Origin: Caldimonas thermodepolymerans
Lineage (GTDB): Bacteria; Pseudomonadota; Gammaproteobacteria; Burkholderiales; Burkholderiaceae_C
DNA: 64,000 bases
NCBI RefSeq assembly: GCF_015476235.1
Contig: NZ_CP064338.1
Location: forward strand, 310,001 to 374,000
Reading direction: 5' to 3'
Shown here: positions 2,956 through 17,708 of the stretch, piece after piece
How positions within the stretch are numbered: the first letter of the stretch is position 1
Layout of the letters: each line of letters starts with the position of its first letter
The notes under the pieces: generated by a model
Database searches by the model: none
Seen by the model: the letters and a program-made list of their open reading frames with translations, nothing else
What the model was told of the DNA's origin: nothing
Translations under genes and position numbers: made by a program

Positions 2956-5838
<2,883 letters not shown>

Positions 5839-10888: not shown

Positions 10889-10920
10889 CCGGCCCTCGCG
10901 CCCACGGCCCGTGGGATTTT

Positions 10921-10936
10921 TGGCACAGCCCTTGCA
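10921..10936 (+). promoter_or_regulatory. sigma-54 (-24/-12) promoter of the ABC transporter operon
   Basis: TGGCACAGCCCTTGCA matches the sigma-54 consensus, with exactly ten bases between the -24 GG and the -12 GC and a T-rich stretch just upstream. The predicted start of transcription is about 10947, giving a leader of some 20 bases that contains the AAGGAGG ribosome site. This makes the operon dependent on RpoN and an activator, typical of nitrogen-scavenging uptake systems. Confidence 0.85.
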
Positions 10937-10966: not shown

Positions 10967-11995
10967 GTGAGCGAGACTGCCGATCTCGAACTGGTGCACC
11001 TGAGCAAGCGATACGGCACCACGACCGCCGTCGACGCGATCGACCTGCGCGTGCCGGGGGGCAGCTACTGCTGCCTGCTCGGGCCCTCGGGCTGCGGCAA
11101 GACCTCGACGCTGCGCATGATCGCCGGCCACGAGCGCGCCAGCGACGGCGACATCCTGCTGGGCGGCCGCAACATCACGCACCTGAGCGCGGCCGAGCGC
11201 GGCACCGCGATGATGTTCCAGAGCTACGCGCTGTTCCCGCACCTGAACGCGCTCGACAACGTCGCCTTCAGCCTCCGGATGCGCGGCATGCCCAAGGCGC
11301 AGCGCCATGCGCGCGCGATGGAGCTGCTGGCGCTGGTCGCGATGGAAGCCTATGCACAGCGCAAGCCGGCGGAGCTGTCCGGCGGGCAGCAGCAGCGCGT
11401 CGCGCTGGCGCGGGCGCTCGCCACCGAGCCACGCGTGCTGCTGCTGGACGAGCCGCTGTCGGCGCTCGATCCTTTCCTGCGCGTGAAGATGCGCGCCGAG
11501 CTCAAGCGCTGGCAGAAGGAGCTGGGCTTCACCTTCGTGCACGTCACGCACTCGCAGGAGGAGGCGATGGCGCTGGCGGACAAGGTGGTGCTGATGAACG
11601 GCGGGCGCATCGAGCAGGAAGGCCCGCCCCACGACGTGTTCAATGCGCCGCGCACCGAGTTCGTCGCGCGTTTCCTCGGCAGCCACAACGTGCTGGAGGT
11701 CGGCGGTGCGGTGGTCGCGGTGCGGGCGGACAAGACCCGCCTGTGGCGCAGCACGCCCGGGCGCACCTGCCTGCGCGCGCAGGTGCGTGCCGTCGAGTAC
11801 CAGGGAACCTACGTGCTGGTGACGCTCCTGCGCGAGCGCCTCGATGGGGGCGCCGGGGGACACGCCATGCCGGACGAGATCACCGCGATGCTGCACGAGG
11901 CCGAGTTCTACGCCCGGCCCTGGCAACCCGGTGAGACCGCATGGGTGTCGTGGGACGACGCCCATGCGCTGCAGGAAACCCGCCTGGCTGCCTGA
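10967..11995 (+). CDS. ABC transporter ATP-binding protein, polyamine/PotA type
   Basis: A 342-residue ATPase that powers the import system encoded by the next three genes. It shows Walker A GPSGCGKTS, Q-loop MMFQSYALFP, signature LSGGQQQRVALARAL, Walker B VLLLDEPLSALD and the switch histidine in HVTHSQEE. A C-terminal TOBE-like domain follows after residue 240. The GTG start at 10967 is fixed by the strong AAGGAGG about eight bases upstream. It is the first gene after the sigma-54 promoter, and its stop lies 73 bp before the binding-protein gene. The substrate cannot be told from the ATPase. Confidence 0.92.
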   Translation: MSETADLELVHLSKRYGTTTAVDAIDLRVPGGSYCCLLGPSGCGKTSTLRMIAGHERASDGDILLGGRNITHLSAAERGTAMMFQSYALFPHLNALDNVAFSLRMRGMPKAQRHARAMELLALVAMEAYAQRKPAELSGGQQQRVALARALATEPRVLLLDEPLSALDPFLRVKMRAELKRWQKELGFTFVHVTHSQEEAMALADKVVLMNGGRIEQEGPPHDVFNAPRTEFVARFLGSHNVLEVGGAVVAVRADKTRLWRSTPGRTCLRAQVRAVEYQGTYVLVTLLRERLDGGAGGHAMPDEITAMLHEAEFYARPWQPGETAWVSWDDAHALQETRLAA

Positions 11996-12068: not shown

Positions 12069-13367
12069 ATGTCCGACCAAGACCTCGACCTGCATTCCGT
12101 CCCGTCCGCGACCGACACCGCCGTGGGCATCAGCCGCCGCAGCCTGCTCAAGGGCGCGGCCGGCATCCTGGCTGCCGGGACCTTCCCGGCAATCCACGCG
12201 CAGGACAGGATCGTGCTGCGCTACCTCGGTACCGCCGTCAACCAGGACAAGGCGATCGCGGACAAGTTCAAGGCAGACACCGGCATCGAGATCCAGTACA
12301 TCCCGGTCACGACCGACGACGTCACCAAGCGCGCCGTGACCGCGCCCAACTCCTTCGACCTGCTCGACACCGAGTACTTCTCGCTGAAGAAGATCGTGCC
12401 CACCGGCAACCTCAAGGGCATCGACGCACGCCGCATCAAGCATGCCGACAAGATCACGCCGCTGTTCACCAAGGGCGAGGTCGGCGGCAAGAAGGTCGGC
12501 GACCAGGGCACCGCGCCGAAGAAGGTGATGTTCCTCGAAGGCGAGAAGTCGAAGAAGTTCGCCACCACCAACACCGGCTACATCACGCTGATCCCGACCA
12601 CCTACAACGCCGACACGCTGGGCATCCGCCCCGACCTCATCAAGCGTCCGGTCACGTCCTGGGCCGACCTGCTGAACCCGGAGTTCAAGGGCCGGGCCGC
12701 GATCCTGAACATCCCGTCGATCGGGATCATGGACGCGGCGATGGTCATCGAGGCGATGGGCCTGTACAGGTACCCCGACAAGGGCAACATGACGCGCCAG
12801 GAGATCGACCTGACGATCAAGACGCTGATCGAGGCCAAGCGCGCCGGCCAGTTCCGCAGCCTGTGGAAGGACTTCAACGAGAGCGTCAACCTGATGGCCT
12901 CCGGCGAGGTGGTGATCCAGTCGATGTGGTCGCCGGCGGTGACCAAGGTGCGCTCGCAGGGCATCGCCTGCGTGTACCAGCCGCTCAAGGAAGGCTACCG
13001 CGCCTGGGCGTCCGGCTTCGGCGTGCCCTCGACGCTGTCGGGCCGCAAGCTCGACGCGGCCTACGAGTTCATCAACTGGTTCCTCGACGGCTGGGCCGGC
13101 GCGCACCTGAACCGCCAGGGCTACTACAGCGCGGTGCTCGAGACCGCCAAGGCCTACATGGAGCCGTACGAGTGGGCCTACTGGATGGAAGGCAAGCCGG
13201 CCGAGAAGGACATCAAGGCCCCGGACGGCACCATCATCGAGAAGGCCGGCTCGGTGCGCGACGGCGGCTCCTACGAGGAGCGCATGGGCGCGATCGCCTG
13301 CTGGAACGCGGTGATGGACGAGAACAACTACATGGTGCAGAAGTGGAATGAGTTCGTGGCGGCGTGA
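12069..13367 (+). CDS. Tat-exported extracellular solute-binding protein
   Basis: A 432-residue periplasmic binding protein of the PotD/spermidine-binding class, which captures the ligand for the permeases. The N-terminus has an unusually long cytoplasmic stretch, then the twin-arginine motif SRRSLLK and hydrophobic GAAGILAAGTFPAIHA, so export is probably by Tat. The mature protein shows the family's ligand-lobe features (SFDLLDTEYFSLKK, PTTYNADTLGI, NLMASGEVVIQSMWSP). AGAGAAAG upstream supports ATG 12069. Related clusters carry polyamines, opines, amino-acid derivatives or hydantoins; the neighbouring racemase-like gene hints at the last two. Confidence 0.9.
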   Translation: MSDQDLDLHSVPSATDTAVGISRRSLLKGAAGILAAGTFPAIHAQDRIVLRYLGTAVNQDKAIADKFKADTGIEIQYIPVTTDDVTKRAVTAPNSFDLLDTEYFSLKKIVPTGNLKGIDARRIKHADKITPLFTKGEVGGKKVGDQGTAPKKVMFLEGEKSKKFATTNTGYITLIPTTYNADTLGIRPDLIKRPVTSWADLLNPEFKGRAAILNIPSIGIMDAAMVIEAMGLYRYPDKGNMTRQEIDLTIKTLIEAKRAGQFRSLWKDFNESVNLMASGEVVIQSMWSPAVTKVRSQGIACVYQPLKEGYRAWASGFGVPSTLSGRKLDAAYEFINWFLDGWAGAHLNRQGYYSAVLETAKAYMEPYEWAYWMEGKPAEKDIKAPDGTIIEKAGSVRDGGSYEERMGAIACWNAVMDENNYMVQKWNEFVAA

Positions 13368-13608: not shown

Positions 13609-14481
13609 ATGTCCCACCGCGCACCCCCCGCCTGGCTGCAGGCCGCCCCGCTGGCGCTGACCTTCGCGTTCTTCTTCGTGATCCCGCTGGCGCTGATCGC
13701 GATGGTCAGCCTGTGGGACTACAACGAGTACGAGCTGATCCCGGCCTTCACGCTGCGCAACTACCAGGACATCTTCAGCGGCTGCAGCAACACCGCCGAC
13801 TGGTGCGTGACGCTGCGCACCTATGCGTCGACGCTGAAGTTCTGCGTGATCGTGTGGGCGGTCACGCTGGTGCTCGGCTTCACGATCGCGTACTTCCTCG
13901 CCTTCCACGTGCGCACGCCGGCGATGCAGACGGTGCTGTTCCTGCTGTGCACCATCCCGTTCTGGACCTCCAACGTGATCCGCATGATCTCGTGGGTGCC
14001 GCTGCTGGGACGCAACGGGCTGATCAACCAGACGCTGCAGTCGCTCGGGCTGATCGAGGCGCCGATCGAGTGGCTGCTGTTCAGCGACTTCTCGGTGGTG
14101 CTGGCCTTCGTGCACCTGTACACGATGTTCATGATCGTGCCGATCTTCAACTCGATGATGCGCATCGACCGCTCGCTGATCGAGGCCGCGCGCGACAGCG
14201 GCGCCAGCGGCTGGCAGACGCTGTGGCACGTGGTGATCCCGCTGTCGCGCACCGGCATCCTGATCGGCTCGATCTTCATCATCACCATCGTGATGGGCGA
14301 CTTCGTCACGGTGGGCGTGATGGGCGGGCAGCAGATCGCCTCGGTCGGCAAGGTGATCCAGGTGCAGACCTCCTACCTGCAGTTCCCGATCGCCGCCGCC
14401 AACGCGGTGATCCTGCTCGCGGTGGTGGTGCTGATCATCTACGCGCTGACGCGCCTGGTCGACATCCGCAAGGAGCTGTGA
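13609..14481 (+). CDS. ABC transporter permease, PotB type
   Basis: A 290-residue inner-membrane permease with six predicted helices. The cytoplasmic EAA loop (EAARDSGASGWQTLWHV) docks the ATPase, and the first helix (LALTFAFFFVIPLALIAM) is typical of PotB-like proteins. AGGAGG at 13594-13599 supports ATG 13609. It follows the binding protein after a structured 241-bp gap and is followed 4 bp later by the second permease, with which it should form the heterodimeric channel. Confidence 0.92.
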   Translation: MSHRAPPAWLQAAPLALTFAFFFVIPLALIAMVSLWDYNEYELIPAFTLRNYQDIFSGCSNTADWCVTLRTYASTLKFCVIVWAVTLVLGFTIAYFLAFHVRTPAMQTVLFLLCTIPFWTSNVIRMISWVPLLGRNGLINQTLQSLGLIEAPIEWLLFSDFSVVLAFVHLYTMFMIVPIFNSMMRIDRSLIEAARDSGASGWQTLWHVVIPLSRTGILIGSIFIITIVMGDFVTVGVMGGQQIASVGKVIQVQTSYLQFPIAAANAVILLAVVVLIIYALTRLVDIRKEL

Positions 14482-14485
14482 CGCG

Positions 14486-15376
14486 ATGGCCCTGCACCGC
14501 GAGCGCGAACCCCGGCCGGCGAGCTTCTGGCTGCTGGCGATCTTCTTCGGCCTGTTCCTGGTGTTCCTCTACGGGCCGACGCTGACCATCTTCGTGCTGA
14601 GCTTCCAGGGGCCGCAGGGCGGCCTGACCTTCCCGATGCGCGGCTGGTCGCTGCACTGGTTCGCGCGGCTGGCCGAGGGGCTGGGCGTGATCGACGTGTG
14701 GGCCGCGCTGCGGCGCTCGCTCAAGCTCGGGCTGGCGGTGATGGGCCTGACCATCCTGGTCTCGGTGCTCGCGGGGCTGGCCTTCCGCAAGAAGCTGCGC
14801 GGCGGCGACGCGCTGTTCTACCTGACCATTGCCAGCCTCATCATGCCCTCGATCATCGTGTCGCTGGGCATCGGCCTGCAGTTCCGGCTGATCGACACCG
14901 GCGTCCAGCGGCTGCTCGAGGCGCTGGAGTGGGAGTGGGCGCTGGAGCACTTCACGACCACGATGGGGCTGGGCACCTCGGCGCTGGGCGCGCACCTGAC
15001 CTGGACGTTGCCGTTCGGGCTGCTGATCATGTTCGCGGTGTTCAACCGCTTCACCCCGGCCTACGAGGAGGCCGCGCGCGACCTGGGCGCCACGCCCTGG
15101 CAGGCGTTCCGCCACGTGGTGCTGCCGCTGATCGGCCCCTCGGTGGTCGGCGTCGGGCTGTTCGGCTTCACGCTGTCCTGGGACGAGATCGCGCGCTCGT
15201 CGCAGGCCATCGGCGACCTCAACACCCTGCCGCTGGAGCTGCAGGGCCTGACCACCACGGTGACCACGCCGGCGATCTACGCGCTGGGCACGCTCACCAC
15301 GGTGGTGTCGCTGCTCGCCATCGGGCTGACCCTGCTGGCGCTGGCCTGGCTGCGCCGCAGCCGGCGCCTGCCCTGA
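14486..15376 (+). CDS. ABC transporter permease, PotC type
   Basis: A 296-residue second permease subunit with six predicted helices and the EAA loop EAARDLGATPWQAFRHV. The N-terminus (FWLLAIFFGLFLVFLYGP) and the periplasmic loop (LSFQGPQGGLTFP) are typical of PotC-type partners. It starts four bases after the first permease, and its stop is followed after 23 bp by the GntR gene, so all should share the sigma-54 transcript. Confidence 0.92.
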   Translation: MALHREREPRPASFWLLAIFFGLFLVFLYGPTLTIFVLSFQGPQGGLTFPMRGWSLHWFARLAEGLGVIDVWAALRRSLKLGLAVMGLTILVSVLAGLAFRKKLRGGDALFYLTIASLIMPSIIVSLGIGLQFRLIDTGVQRLLEALEWEWALEHFTTTMGLGTSALGAHLTWTLPFGLLIMFAVFNRFTPAYEEAARDLGATPWQAFRHVVLPLIGPSVVGVGLFGFTLSWDEIARSSQAIGDLNTLPLELQGLTTTVTTPAIYALGTLTTVVSLLAIGLTLLALAWLRRSRRLP

Positions 15377-15399: not shown

Positions 15400-16155
15400 G
15401 TGACAGGACCGTCGACCGCCCTGGCCCTGGTCGAGGCCGCGCCGGAGGACGCGCGCCCGAGCGACGAGCAGATGTACCAGCGCATCGTCGAGGCCATCCT
15501 GGACCACCGGCTGCAGCCCGGCACCAAGCTGGTCGAGGACCGGCTGGGCCAGGCCTTCGGCGTCTCGCGCACCCGCATCCGCCACGTGCTGATCCGCCTG
15601 GCCAACGAGCAGCTGGTGACGCTGTCGCGCCACCGCGGCGCGACCGTGGTGCAGCCGAGCGCCGAGGAGGCGCGCGAGGTGTTCGGCGTGCGCCGGCTGA
15701 TCGAGCCGGAGCTGGTGGCGCTGTACCTGCGGCATGCCGGCGACGAGGCGCACGCGCGCCTGGCGGCCTGCATCGAGGCCGAGGAAGCCGCGCGCACCCT
15801 GGGCGACCGGCACCGCGCGATCCGGCTGTCCGGCGAGTTCCACCTGCTGATCGCGCAGGGCGCGCGCCACCGCACGCTGGAGCGCCTGCTGCGCGAGCTG
15901 GTGTCGCGGACCTCGCTGGTGCTGATGACCTACGGCACGCCCGAGGCCATCGCCGGCACGCCGCTGGACGGCTGCCGCTGCCACGAGCACCGCGCGCTGC
16001 TGCAGGCGCTGCGCCTGGGCGACGTGCGCGCCGCGCAGGAGGTCGCGGTGCGCCACCTCGCGCACCTCGAGGCGCTGCTGGACTTCACCCGGCCCGAACG
16101 CGGGCCGGCCGACCTGCTGCAACTGTTCGGTCGCGCCGCGGCCGATGCCGACTGA
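15400..16155 (+). CDS. GntR-family (FadR/FCD type) transcriptional regulator
   Basis: A 251-residue regulator. The winged HTH at about residues 20-85 (MYQRIVEAILDHRLQPGTKL, then GVSRTRIRHVLIRLANEQLV) is followed by an all-helical FCD ligand domain containing the metal-site pattern FHLLIA and CHEHRALLQAL. The only plausible start is GTG at 15400, preceded by GGGGAGGGG. Located inside the uptake operon, it probably senses the imported compound or a breakdown product and controls the operon, alongside the sigma-54 activator. This is inferred from position. Confidence 0.88.
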   Translation: MTGPSTALALVEAAPEDARPSDEQMYQRIVEAILDHRLQPGTKLVEDRLGQAFGVSRTRIRHVLIRLANEQLVTLSRHRGATVVQPSAEEAREVFGVRRLIEPELVALYLRHAGDEAHARLAACIEAEEAARTLGDRHRAIRLSGEFHLLIAQGARHRTLERLLRELVSRTSLVLMTYGTPEAIAGTPLDGCRCHEHRALLQALRLGDVRAAQEVAVRHLAHLEALLDFTRPERGPADLLQLFGRAAADAD

Positions 16156-16162
16156 GGACCCC

Positions 16163-16891
16163 ATGCCGCGACGCCTGCTGCTCGTCAACCCCAACACCTC
16201 GGCGCCGGTCACGGCGCGGCTGGCGCAGCACGTGCAGGCGGCGCTGCGCGACGAGGACGTGACGGTGCAGGCGTGCACCGCGCGCTTCGGTGCCGAGTAC
16301 ATCAGCAGCGAGGCGAGCTATGCCGTCGCCGCCCATGCGACGCTGGACGCCTATGCCGCGGCGGTCGCCATCGACGGCCGCCCGGACGCGGTGCTGGTCG
16401 GCTGCTTCGGCGACCCGGGCGTGTTCGCGCTGCGCGAGCTGTGCCCGCACCCGGTGACCGGGCTGGCCGAGGCGGCGATGCGCGAGGCCGCGGCGCTCGG
16501 GCGCTTCGCGATCGTCACGGGCGGTGCGGCCTGGGCGCCGATGCTGCGGCGCCTGGCGTACGGCCTCGGGCTGCACGAGGCGCTGGCCGGCGTGCACACC
16601 GTGGCGGCCAGCGGCCTGCAGCTGTCGTCCGACCTGGACGCCGCGCGGGCCGCGTTGCGGCCGGCCTGCCTGGCGGCGGCGCAGGGCGAGGGCGTGCGCA
16701 GCGTGATCGTCGGCGGCGCGGGGCTGGCCGGCCTGGCCGCCCGGCTGGCCGGGGACGTGCCGGTGCCGCTGATCGACAGCGTCGAGGCCGGGGCGCGCCA
16801 GGCGTTGCGTGCCGCGCCGGCCGCCGTGGCGGCGTCCGCGGTGCGCTGGCAGGGCCTGTCGGCGCCGCTGCAGCAGCTGCTGCTGGGCTGA
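16163..16891 (+). CDS. Asp/Glu/hydantoin racemase-family protein, second catalytic Cys missing
   Basis: A 242-residue protein of the Asp/Glu/hydantoin racemase superfamily, with the N-terminal NPNTS loop and the first catalytic cysteine in VGCFGDPG. The second half-site, normally containing a cysteine (GC-T/A-G), reads VGGAGLAG here. With only one cysteine a two-base racemisation is unlikely; the protein may be an isomerase or decarboxylase relative, as with arylmalonate decarboxylases, or a racemase acting differently. ATG 16163 follows GAGGA and is preferred to an ATG 18 bases upstream that overlaps the GntR gene. It is the last gene of the operon and ends 7 bp from the convergent HDOD gene. 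Confidence 0.82.
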
Positions 16892-16898
16892 GCGCGGG

Positions 16899-17708
16899 TC
16901 AGGCCTCGGCCGCGCGCAGCACCGCGTAGGCATCCTGCGCCGCCTCGAGGAAGCGCACCTCGTCCAGACCGCCCAGGGTGGCGGCGGCGCGCACCGCGGC
17001 CTCGAGGGCGTCGGGGGCGCGCATCAGGTAGTGCGCCACCGCCGACAGCGCGCACAGCGGCCGCGCCTCGGGCTTGTCGGGCCAGGTGCCGCCGCTTTGC
17101 ACGACCACGTGGTAGCGCACGCAGGTCACGGCGGCCGGGTGCAGCGTCCAGGTCTGGCACAGCGCCGCGCCCAGCGCGTCGTGGCTGACGCCGAAGGCCT
17201 GCATCTCCTGCAGCACCAGCAGGTCGTCGGCCGGCGCGTCGCGCAGCATCGGCCCGTAGCGCTCGGGCGCGTGCCGGAACATCACCGCCTTGCCGCATTC
17301 CTCGAACAGGCCGGCCGAGTGCGCGACGAAGGTGTCCAGGCCGAGGCGGCGCGCCATCAGCGCCATCAGCATGCCGCGCCGGTTGGCGCGCAGCCACAGC
17401 GCGTCCAGCTCGGGCGCCGACGGGAACACCGAGCGCAGCCCCATCTCGTAGGTGATCGCGGCCACCTCGTTGCTGCCCAGGTACAGGAGGGCCTGCTGCA
17501 CCGTGCGCACCTGCCGGCGCAGCCCGTAGATCGGCGAGTTGAGCGCCTTGAGCACCGCCGCGGCCAGGGTCATGTCGCCTTCGATCAGGCTGCCCATGGC
17601 CTTGAAGTCCACCTCCTCCTCGGCCAGCAGCAGCGACAGCTGCACCAGCACGGCCGGCTGGGCGGGCAGGTCGATGTTCAGCGATCGCAGGGTATGGTCG
17701 ACGGGCAT
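16899..17708 (-). CDS. HDOD domain protein
   Basis: A 269-residue protein made almost entirely of an HDOD domain, an HD-phosphodiesterase-like fold that usually lacks catalytic residues and works as a signalling module. Typical features are [11 protein letters not shown] and [13 protein letters not shown], then the C-terminal helix [14 protein letters not shown] with VRYHV. No GGDEF, EAL or receiver domain is attached. It is divergent from cheY, and HDOD proteins often occur with chemotaxis and motility genes, so a role in cell signalling is plausible. The start at 17708 has no good ribosome site and lies 15 bases from a perfect 14-bp inverted repeat. Confidence 0.85.

Follow-up and report, generated by a model that had tools for sequence, protein, structure and literature searches.

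Racemases that work without a cofactor are the standard example of two thiols facing each other, and the window analysed here, a stretch of 64,000 nucleotides from Caldimonas thermodepolymerans, encodes a member of this family in which one of the two catalytic cysteines is a glycine. What does such a protein do, and is it an enzyme at all? Our answer is that the gene is probably not dead but encodes a racemase-like enzyme whose active site is unusual.

The two catalytic sites

The open reading frame encodes 242 amino acids, and the sole Pfam match with E up to 0.001 was PF01177 (138.9 bits against a cut-off of 31, residues 5-214). At E 0.001 no NCBIfam model was matched, nor was the family Amdase, PF17645, in the Pfam search. 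The protein is one of four PF01177 matches in the window's genome. Its first site (residues 79-86) reads VGCFGDPG and holds Cys81, and its second (residues 183-190) reads VGGAGLAG and holds Gly185 (Table 1). An AlphaFold2 model made with 14 sequences as input reached a mean pLDDT of 92.7 and a pTM of 0.90, and in it the two sites were pseudo-symmetric, strand 76-79 leading to Cys81 and strand 178-184 to Gly185. Since the two strands end just before these residues, the sites are structurally equivalent and the second cysteine is absent. An earlier, sequence-only reading of this DNA had described the first half-site as intact and the second as lacking its Cys, which sequence, alignment and model now confirm; it had also allowed that a model might place another Cys at the second site, and there we found Gly185, with no substitute Cys running through the clade described below.

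As for stand-ins elsewhere in the chain, Cys169, the only other conserved Cys, also occurs in 20 of 23 relatives that possess both catalytic cysteines, and Cys38 and Cys94 are each conserved in fewer than 90% of 37 sequences; none of the three is supported as a substitute. Residue 205 is a separate case, being Asp in the window protein and Cys in 7 of 42 relatives of the same site type (rows L027, L048 and L071-L075, within VLCS or similar). Judging from the alignment, Cys205 could serve as an alternative thiol in those seven rows, not in the window protein.

Table 1. Positions of the operon features and of the codons discussed in the text, numbered along the window
Feature	Position	Strand	Evidence or conservation
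Perfect palindrome of 7+7 nt, CCCACGGCCCGTGGG, immediately upstream of the promoter; possible binding site for a regulator	10901..10915	.	
Sigma-54 (-24/-12) promoter TGGCACAGCCCTTGC	10921..10935	+	Exact match; 31 nt of sequence between the site and the GTG of the first gene
ABC importer ATPase, PotA-like, GTG start	10967..11995	+	PF00005, PF08402
ABC importer solute-binding protein, distant PotD/PotF relative	12069..13367	+	PF13416
ABC importer permease 1, PotB-like	13609..14481	+	PF00528
ABC importer permease 2, PotC-like	14486..15376	+	PF00528
GntR-family regulator, FCD type, start codon uncertain	15400..16155	+	PF00392, PF07729
Asp/Glu/hydantoin-racemase-family protein, Cys81/Gly185 type	16163..16891	+	PF01177, AlphaFold2 model, fold matches
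Tyr46 codon, candidate acid/base	16298..16300	+	Tyr in 42/42 of the clade
His58 codon, candidate acid/base	16334..16336	+	His in 41/42 of the clade, 6/24 Ala/Gly
Cys81 codon TGC, first catalytic site	16403..16405	+	Cys in 42/42 of the clade
Asp84 codon; Asp84 is at +3 from Cys81 and aligns with Glu78 of PfAllR	16412..16414	+	Asp in 42/42
Trp124 codon, in the clade signature TGGxxWxxML	16532..16534	+	Trp in 42/42; Thr in 21/23 Cys/Cys
Gly185 codon GGC, replacing the second catalytic Cys	16715..16717	+	Gly in 42/42 of the clade; Cys in 23/23 of the Cys/Cys clade

Relatives and their site types

The search for relatives covered genomes from the genus (9), the order (399) and the phylum (398), together with 15 named contigs. 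The gene is sparse, with a close copy in just two of the nine genus genomes, the window's included. The search returned 122 places, from which identical-end copies and proteins with lengths outside 180-330 amino acids (the partial L049 among them) were removed, leaving 95, and two PDB sequences brought the set to 97 proteins typed by the residues at their first and second sites: Cys/Gly (42), Ala/Gly (24), Cys/Cys (23), Gly/Cys (6), Ile/Gly (1) and Ser/Gly (1). Because several loci are near-copies (L037/L039/L116, L042/L067, L044/L046 and L036/L040), locus counts here and below are not independent.

The tree of the 97 proteins was built without both trait columns, by a quick method, unrooted and with several long branches among the Ala/Gly rows. 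In it the 42 Cys/Gly rows formed a single clade (SH-aLRT 99) and the Cys/Cys rows another (SH-aLRT 98), and Ala/Gly required three changes. A further branch of this quick, unrooted tree (98) gathered the Cys/Cys and Gly/Cys rows together with both PDB allantoin racemases and left the Cys/Gly clade outside. Alignment with racemases, the check proposed along with the sequence-only reading, showed that the trait marks a clade. The carriers include Paracidovorax, Azohydromonas, Variovorax, Aquabacterium, Piscinibacter and Methylobacterium among others, and the plasmid-borne orthologues L136, L137, L138 and L172 carry identical motifs at both sites. With 42 of the 97 proteins sharing the trait as one clade and four plasmid-borne orthologues agreeing, sequencing error, chance or a pseudogene can be ruled out.

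Two of the other types are found side by side: Gly/Cys and Ala/Gly members adjoin on opposite strands (L028, L029, L031, L065; L054, L056, L065), with overlapping 3' ends in L054; in L054, L056 and L065 the pair has genes for 2-hydroxyacid and aldehyde dehydrogenases as neighbours.

Conserved and altered columns

Throughout the Cys/Gly clade, Asn9, Asn11, Thr12, Tyr46, Cys81, Phe82, Gly83, Asp84, Thr119, Gly120, Gly121, Trp124, Met127, Leu128, Gly184 and Gly185 are invariant (42/42). The Tyr46 column is Ser in all 23 Cys/Cys proteins and Tyr in 18 of the 24 Ala/Gly proteins; Gly120-Gly121 is mostly Thr-Leu in Cys/Cys proteins; and at the His58 column the five residues listed as commonest among the 23 Cys/Cys proteins were Pro, Val, Leu, Ala and Ile. 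The exchanges of Ser for Tyr46, Thr-Leu for Gly120-Gly121 and Thr for Trp124, relative to the Cys/Cys proteins, suggest a different substrate, and with several columns changed near the motifs an altered substrate or reaction of the clade is plausible on sequence grounds. An acid at position +3 from Gly185 was looked for and not found, residue 188 being Leu in 39 and Phe in 3 of the 42 proteins.

Comparison with known enzymes

A fold search with the model gave as nearest solved structures two allantoin racemases, PfAllR of Pseudomonas fluorescens (5lg5; Z 30.0, rmsd 2.0 Å over 227 aligned residues) and HpxA/KpAllR of Klebsiella pneumoniae (3qvj; Z 29.4, rmsd 2.2 Å over 235 aligned residues), followed by the Pyrococcus hydantoin racemase 2eq5 (Z 24.4). 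Lower scores were obtained for OpaE, a fungal epimerase of the Asp/Glu racemase family (9qbx; Z 21.0, 17% identity over the structural alignment), for the maleate cis-trans isomerases 2xed and 4fq7 (Z 18.7-18.9) and for the arylmalonate decarboxylase AMDase of Bordetella bronchiseptica (Z 18.4-18.6). Maleate cis-trans isomerase uses two Cys, of which the second is Gly in the Cys/Gly protein; PDB titles name mutants changing Cys194 or Cys200 (2xed, 4fq7).

KpAllR shares with the window protein the fold, the CFGDPG first site and the NPNT motif, and further members of its clade are likewise encoded close to genes of purine catabolism. Unlike the Cys/Gly proteins, it belongs to a separate clade, has Ser, Thr-Leu and Thr at the columns of Tyr46, Gly120-Gly121 and Trp124, and possesses both cysteines (Cys79 and Cys184; PMC12661438). 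PfAllR, by contrast, is the mirror case: it has the same fold and just one of the two Cys, and in the alignment it shows Gly75 at the first site, Glu78 at +3 and Cys180 kept at the second, whereas the Cys/Gly clade keeps the first Cys, has Gly at the second and shows no acid at +3. This enzyme reportedly racemises allantoin with the help of Glu78, three residues after the position of the missing Cys, as Cendron is said to have described in 2016. The statement of the sequence-only reading that two-base racemisation needs both Cys was too strong, since PfAllR has Gly at the other Cys position (5lfd). OpaE tells a less favourable story for the loss itself. Both Cys90 and Cys199 are needed there, C199S retaining 0.3% or less of activity and C90S 4.8% (PMC12661438), and Cys199, the more critical of the two, is the site missing in the Cys/Gly protein.

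AMDase belongs to the same superfamily and likewise combines one Cys with one Gly, but it keeps the second, Cys188, and has Gly74 at the first, which is the opposite face to Cys81/Gly185 (Gly74/Cys188: PMC4996985). This mirror relation raises the tentative possibility of a one-base enzyme, in which Cys81 would remove or donate a proton on one face of the substrate only, in a decarboxylation, an elimination or a stereospecific protonation within ureide or hydantoin catabolism. It would agree with the lack of a replacement acid at +3 of Gly185 and with the remodelling of several columns; an inverted AMDase, engineered as Gly74Cys-Cys188Ser, was crystallised according to the title of 3ixl, and in another epimerase a Cys-to-Thr change yielded a dehydratase (PMC8142540). 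Against it stand the unmatched PF17645, a fold score of 18.6 for AMDase against 30 for the allantoin racemases, and the linked gene clusters, which contain no obvious malonate-type or beta-leaving-group substrate. The comparison with arylmalonate decarboxylases that had been recommended for this protein thus yielded a reversed Gly/Cys arrangement in a more distant fold. Going further, the whole Cys/Gly clade might be a natural single-thiol type with its reactive face opposite to that of AMDase, a cofactor-free one-base ureide or hydantoin enzyme carrying out effectively one-way stereospecific protonation, decarboxylation or elimination instead of racemisation, a proposal that we regard as doubtful. 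Among open-licence papers, searched by their titles and the beginnings of their abstracts, none was found on a family member with the first Cys only.

The importer operon and its promoter

The gene stands last in an operon that runs from ATPase through solute-binding protein, permease 1, permease 2 and GntR/FCD regulator to the Cys/Gly gene; the downstream gene (16899-17708, HDOD domain) is convergent. Among the best 25 NCBIfam models listed for the ATPase no cut-off was reached, PotA/PhnT2 being nearest. The solute-binding protein has a twin-arginine-like SRRSLLK leader, read by eye, its best phmmer match in the PDB was 8y5h (E 2.8e-9), and it is 79-86% identical across the orthologous operons with this Pot-type importer. 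Polyamine uptake was considered as the role of the operon and set aside, as the importer matches PotD/PotF only distantly and reached none of the listed NCBIfam cut-offs. Of the 41 Cys/Gly loci with a length above 8 kb, 11 (window included) have a Pot-type importer, which also occurs on two annotated plasmids; 9 have a different, Dpp-type importer, five of these with an amidase gene within about 7 kb, and 21 have neither type.

In the window alone, 9 sigma-54 matches with up to one mismatch were counted against 16.65 expected, which is not significant, and the match in the window is insufficient by itself; the case for the site lies in its conservation in orthologous operons. Of the 13 Pot-type operons (window included, L036/L040 and L044/L046 being near-copies), all but L136, hence 12, showed the strict pattern TGGCA[CT]N5TTGC 5' of their first gene, versus 0 of 207 other gene starts from 11 of these 13 loci. 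The claim that this is the last gene of a sigma-54 uptake operon has consequently gained in strength. Of the Dpp-type loci, 3 of 8 (L047, L066 and L117) carried a strict site, in a wider window and without a control. Two matches to the sigma-54 DNA-binding domain lie at separate places in the window's genome (G000:C1:209011 and 1223063), and nitrogen control of the operon may be inferred from its promoter type.

In nine of the 12 operons the strict site begins 27-28 nt before the predicted start, and the -12 element ends some 13 nt before the predicted ATPase start (L036, L038, L040, L041, L043, L050, L057, L058 and L137). So short a distance would mean either a leaderless transcript or a true start codon further downstream. 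A second side observation is that Cys/Cys racemase-like genes adjoin an importer of the same Pot-type family in L103, L110, L112 and L114, with permeases 58-72% identical to those of the window and, in three of the four, a solute-binding protein 59-65% identical; the ligand of the importer may hence be common to two active-site types.

The GntR gene is present directly before the Cys/Gly gene in 10 of the 13 Pot-type operons, and this gave rise to the thought that the protein might be a paralogue that has lost its catalysis and survives as a partner, ligand-binding or regulatory, of the importer or of the GntR regulator. OpaE would speak for it too, as the lost Cys is the one whose substitution abolishes activity there (PMC12661438). 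Nevertheless, we consider it very unlikely: full conservation of Cys81, Phe82, Asp84, Thr119, Asn9 and Asn11 (42/42) is unexpected if catalysis has been lost, and the gene also occurs without a GntR gene and with a different type of importer.

Urate and allantoin genes in carrier genomes

In Methylobacterium, the annotated order in M. oryzae is puuE, NCS1, the Cys/Gly gene, MFS, uraH, uraH, uraD, FAD oxidoreductase, two further genes and xdh; the cluster of M. radiotolerans is similar, with a weak PuuE-like stretch (27% identity) where puuE would be. In L062 the Cys/Gly gene is followed directly by uraD and uraH, both above their cut-offs, and 156 bp separate the end of the Cys/Gly match in G013 from a PuuE that exceeds its cut-off. 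A PuuE above cut-off or a UraD lies no more than 10 kb away in 5 of the 28 carrier genomes other than the window's (G013, G067, G133, G236 and G545, with G133 and G236 from the same genus). Linkage to uraD, uraH or puuE therefore holds for a minority of carrier loci and is evidence at the level of the clade.

Across whole genomes the association is broader. All 29 carrier genomes taken together contain UraD in 26 cases and PuuE above cut-off in 27. In the order sample, UraD was found in 19 of 22 carriers versus 73 of 377 non-carriers (odds ratio 26, Fisher p 1.4e-10) and PuuE in 20 of 22 versus 75 of 377 (odds ratio 40, Fisher p 9.8e-12), both figures ignoring phylogeny and genome size. Non-carriers here comprise the genomes that gave no match at E 1e-25 and eight whose matches are Ala/Gly, and the three order searches, which gave identical genome handles, were treated as one draw. 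In 10 of the 29 carrier genomes the Cys/Gly protein was the sole match of a Cys/Cys query at E 1e-10, and all ten contain UraD.

In the window's genome itself, one cluster combines a urate oxidase domain gene, PuuE (515 bits against a cut-off of 424.6), a UraD-M20 fusion and an FCD-GntR. These purine genes lie elsewhere in the genome, and the operon of the window is not physically linked to uraD, uraH or puuE. The same genome encodes a canonical Cys/Cys relative (L115) beside an NCS1 permease and a molybdopterin-binding protein, and this relative is the likelier allantoin racemase of the organism. Genomic context points to urate and allantoin catabolism for the Cys/Gly clade. Since a racemase role is the simplest one in such a context, the single-base isomerisation or decarboxylation offered as examples by the sequence-only reading is possible but not favoured, while its broader suggestion of an unusual substrate or reaction agrees with the changed active-site columns. 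For decarboxylation in particular, the known decarboxylase of the pathway, uraD, is already at hand in nearly every carrier genome (the 26 of 29 above).

Another reading to be weighed leaves the noncanonical second base as it is but replaces allantoin as the substrate of the racemase by 5-substituted hydantoins or other ureides. Genes of the D-hydantoinase family lie near the Cys/Gly gene in L058 and L137, the amidase genes of the five Dpp-type loci would fit as well, and the related proteins with no catalytic Cys have D-hydantoinase homologues as neighbours in most rows. Yet among the Pot-type operons tested, the window's included, L058 and L137 alone showed a hydantoinase homologue near the gene, and uraH, uraD and puuE are linked to it more directly; we think this substrate class unlikely.

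Two observations belong beside this subject. The Ala/Gly group, with 24 of the 97 proteins and no Cys at either site, shows a D-hydantoinase homologue close to the gene for 12 of its 19 rows (L051 9325, L052 9046, L053, L054, L056, L101, counted twice, L103, L106, L132, L133 and L135). L137, a Polaromonas plasmid, carries at 3386-4525 a gene of the cyanuric acid amidohydrolase (AtzD) family (544.9 bits against a cut-off of 360), together with a dihydropyrimidinase gene, a ureidoglycolate lyase family gene and an importer of the window's type.

Proposed function

We propose, at a probability of about one half, that the protein is an enzyme of the allantoin or ureide racemase type in which one thiol works with a second base other than a thiol, predicted to be active and encoded beside an importer. 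Extracellular allantoin occurs in both hands. The sigma-54 operon would import allantoin or a closely related ureide, probably under nitrogen shortage, and the Cys81/Gly185 enzyme would isomerise it, converting the wrong hand to the one that can be opened by the allantoinase PuuE, whose gene lies elsewhere in the genome. In the active site Cys81 would be the single thiol on one face of the substrate and Gly185 would lie on the opposite face, where a non-thiol group, perhaps Tyr46, His58 or water, could act as the second acid/base. Such a pairing of importer and racemase-type enzyme would also account for an operon that requires no other enzyme.

This racemase proposal draws on a fold nearest to the allantoin racemases, on the unity of the Cys/Gly clade, on the gene links in Methylobacterium, L062 and G013, on the co-occurrence with UraD and PuuE and the urate genes of the organism's own genome, on the conserved promoter and on the existence of PfAllR as a racemase with one Cys. 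Several facts weigh against it. The genome has its resident Cys/Cys relative L115; only a minority of loci are linked to uraD, uraH or puuE, the operon of the window being among the unlinked ones, and about half of the loci (21/41) have neither importer; columns have changed, the empty site has no acid at +3 in the manner of PfAllR, and the equivalent loss is the more damaging one in OpaE (PMC12661438); finally, hydantoinase genes occur in L058 and L137, the latter also with its gene of the cyanuric-acid-hydrolase family.

Implications

For the organism, the finding attaches a sigma-54 importer to a likely role in purine nitrogen. For the family, it indicates that the annotation "aspartate/glutamate racemase family protein" conceals several active-site types. 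If the clade were indeed one of one-way, one-base enzymes, then, together with the no-Cys clade, much of this part of the racemase family would have left two-thiol chemistry. On the applied side, the Cys/Gly proteins are a natural counterpart of the engineered inverted decarboxylase 3ixl. The Cys/Gly clade, with 42 members sampled, and PfAllR, which has the second thiol only, make a natural pair for probing the role of the second base, and the same pair tests whether the loss of that base turns racemisation into another reaction.
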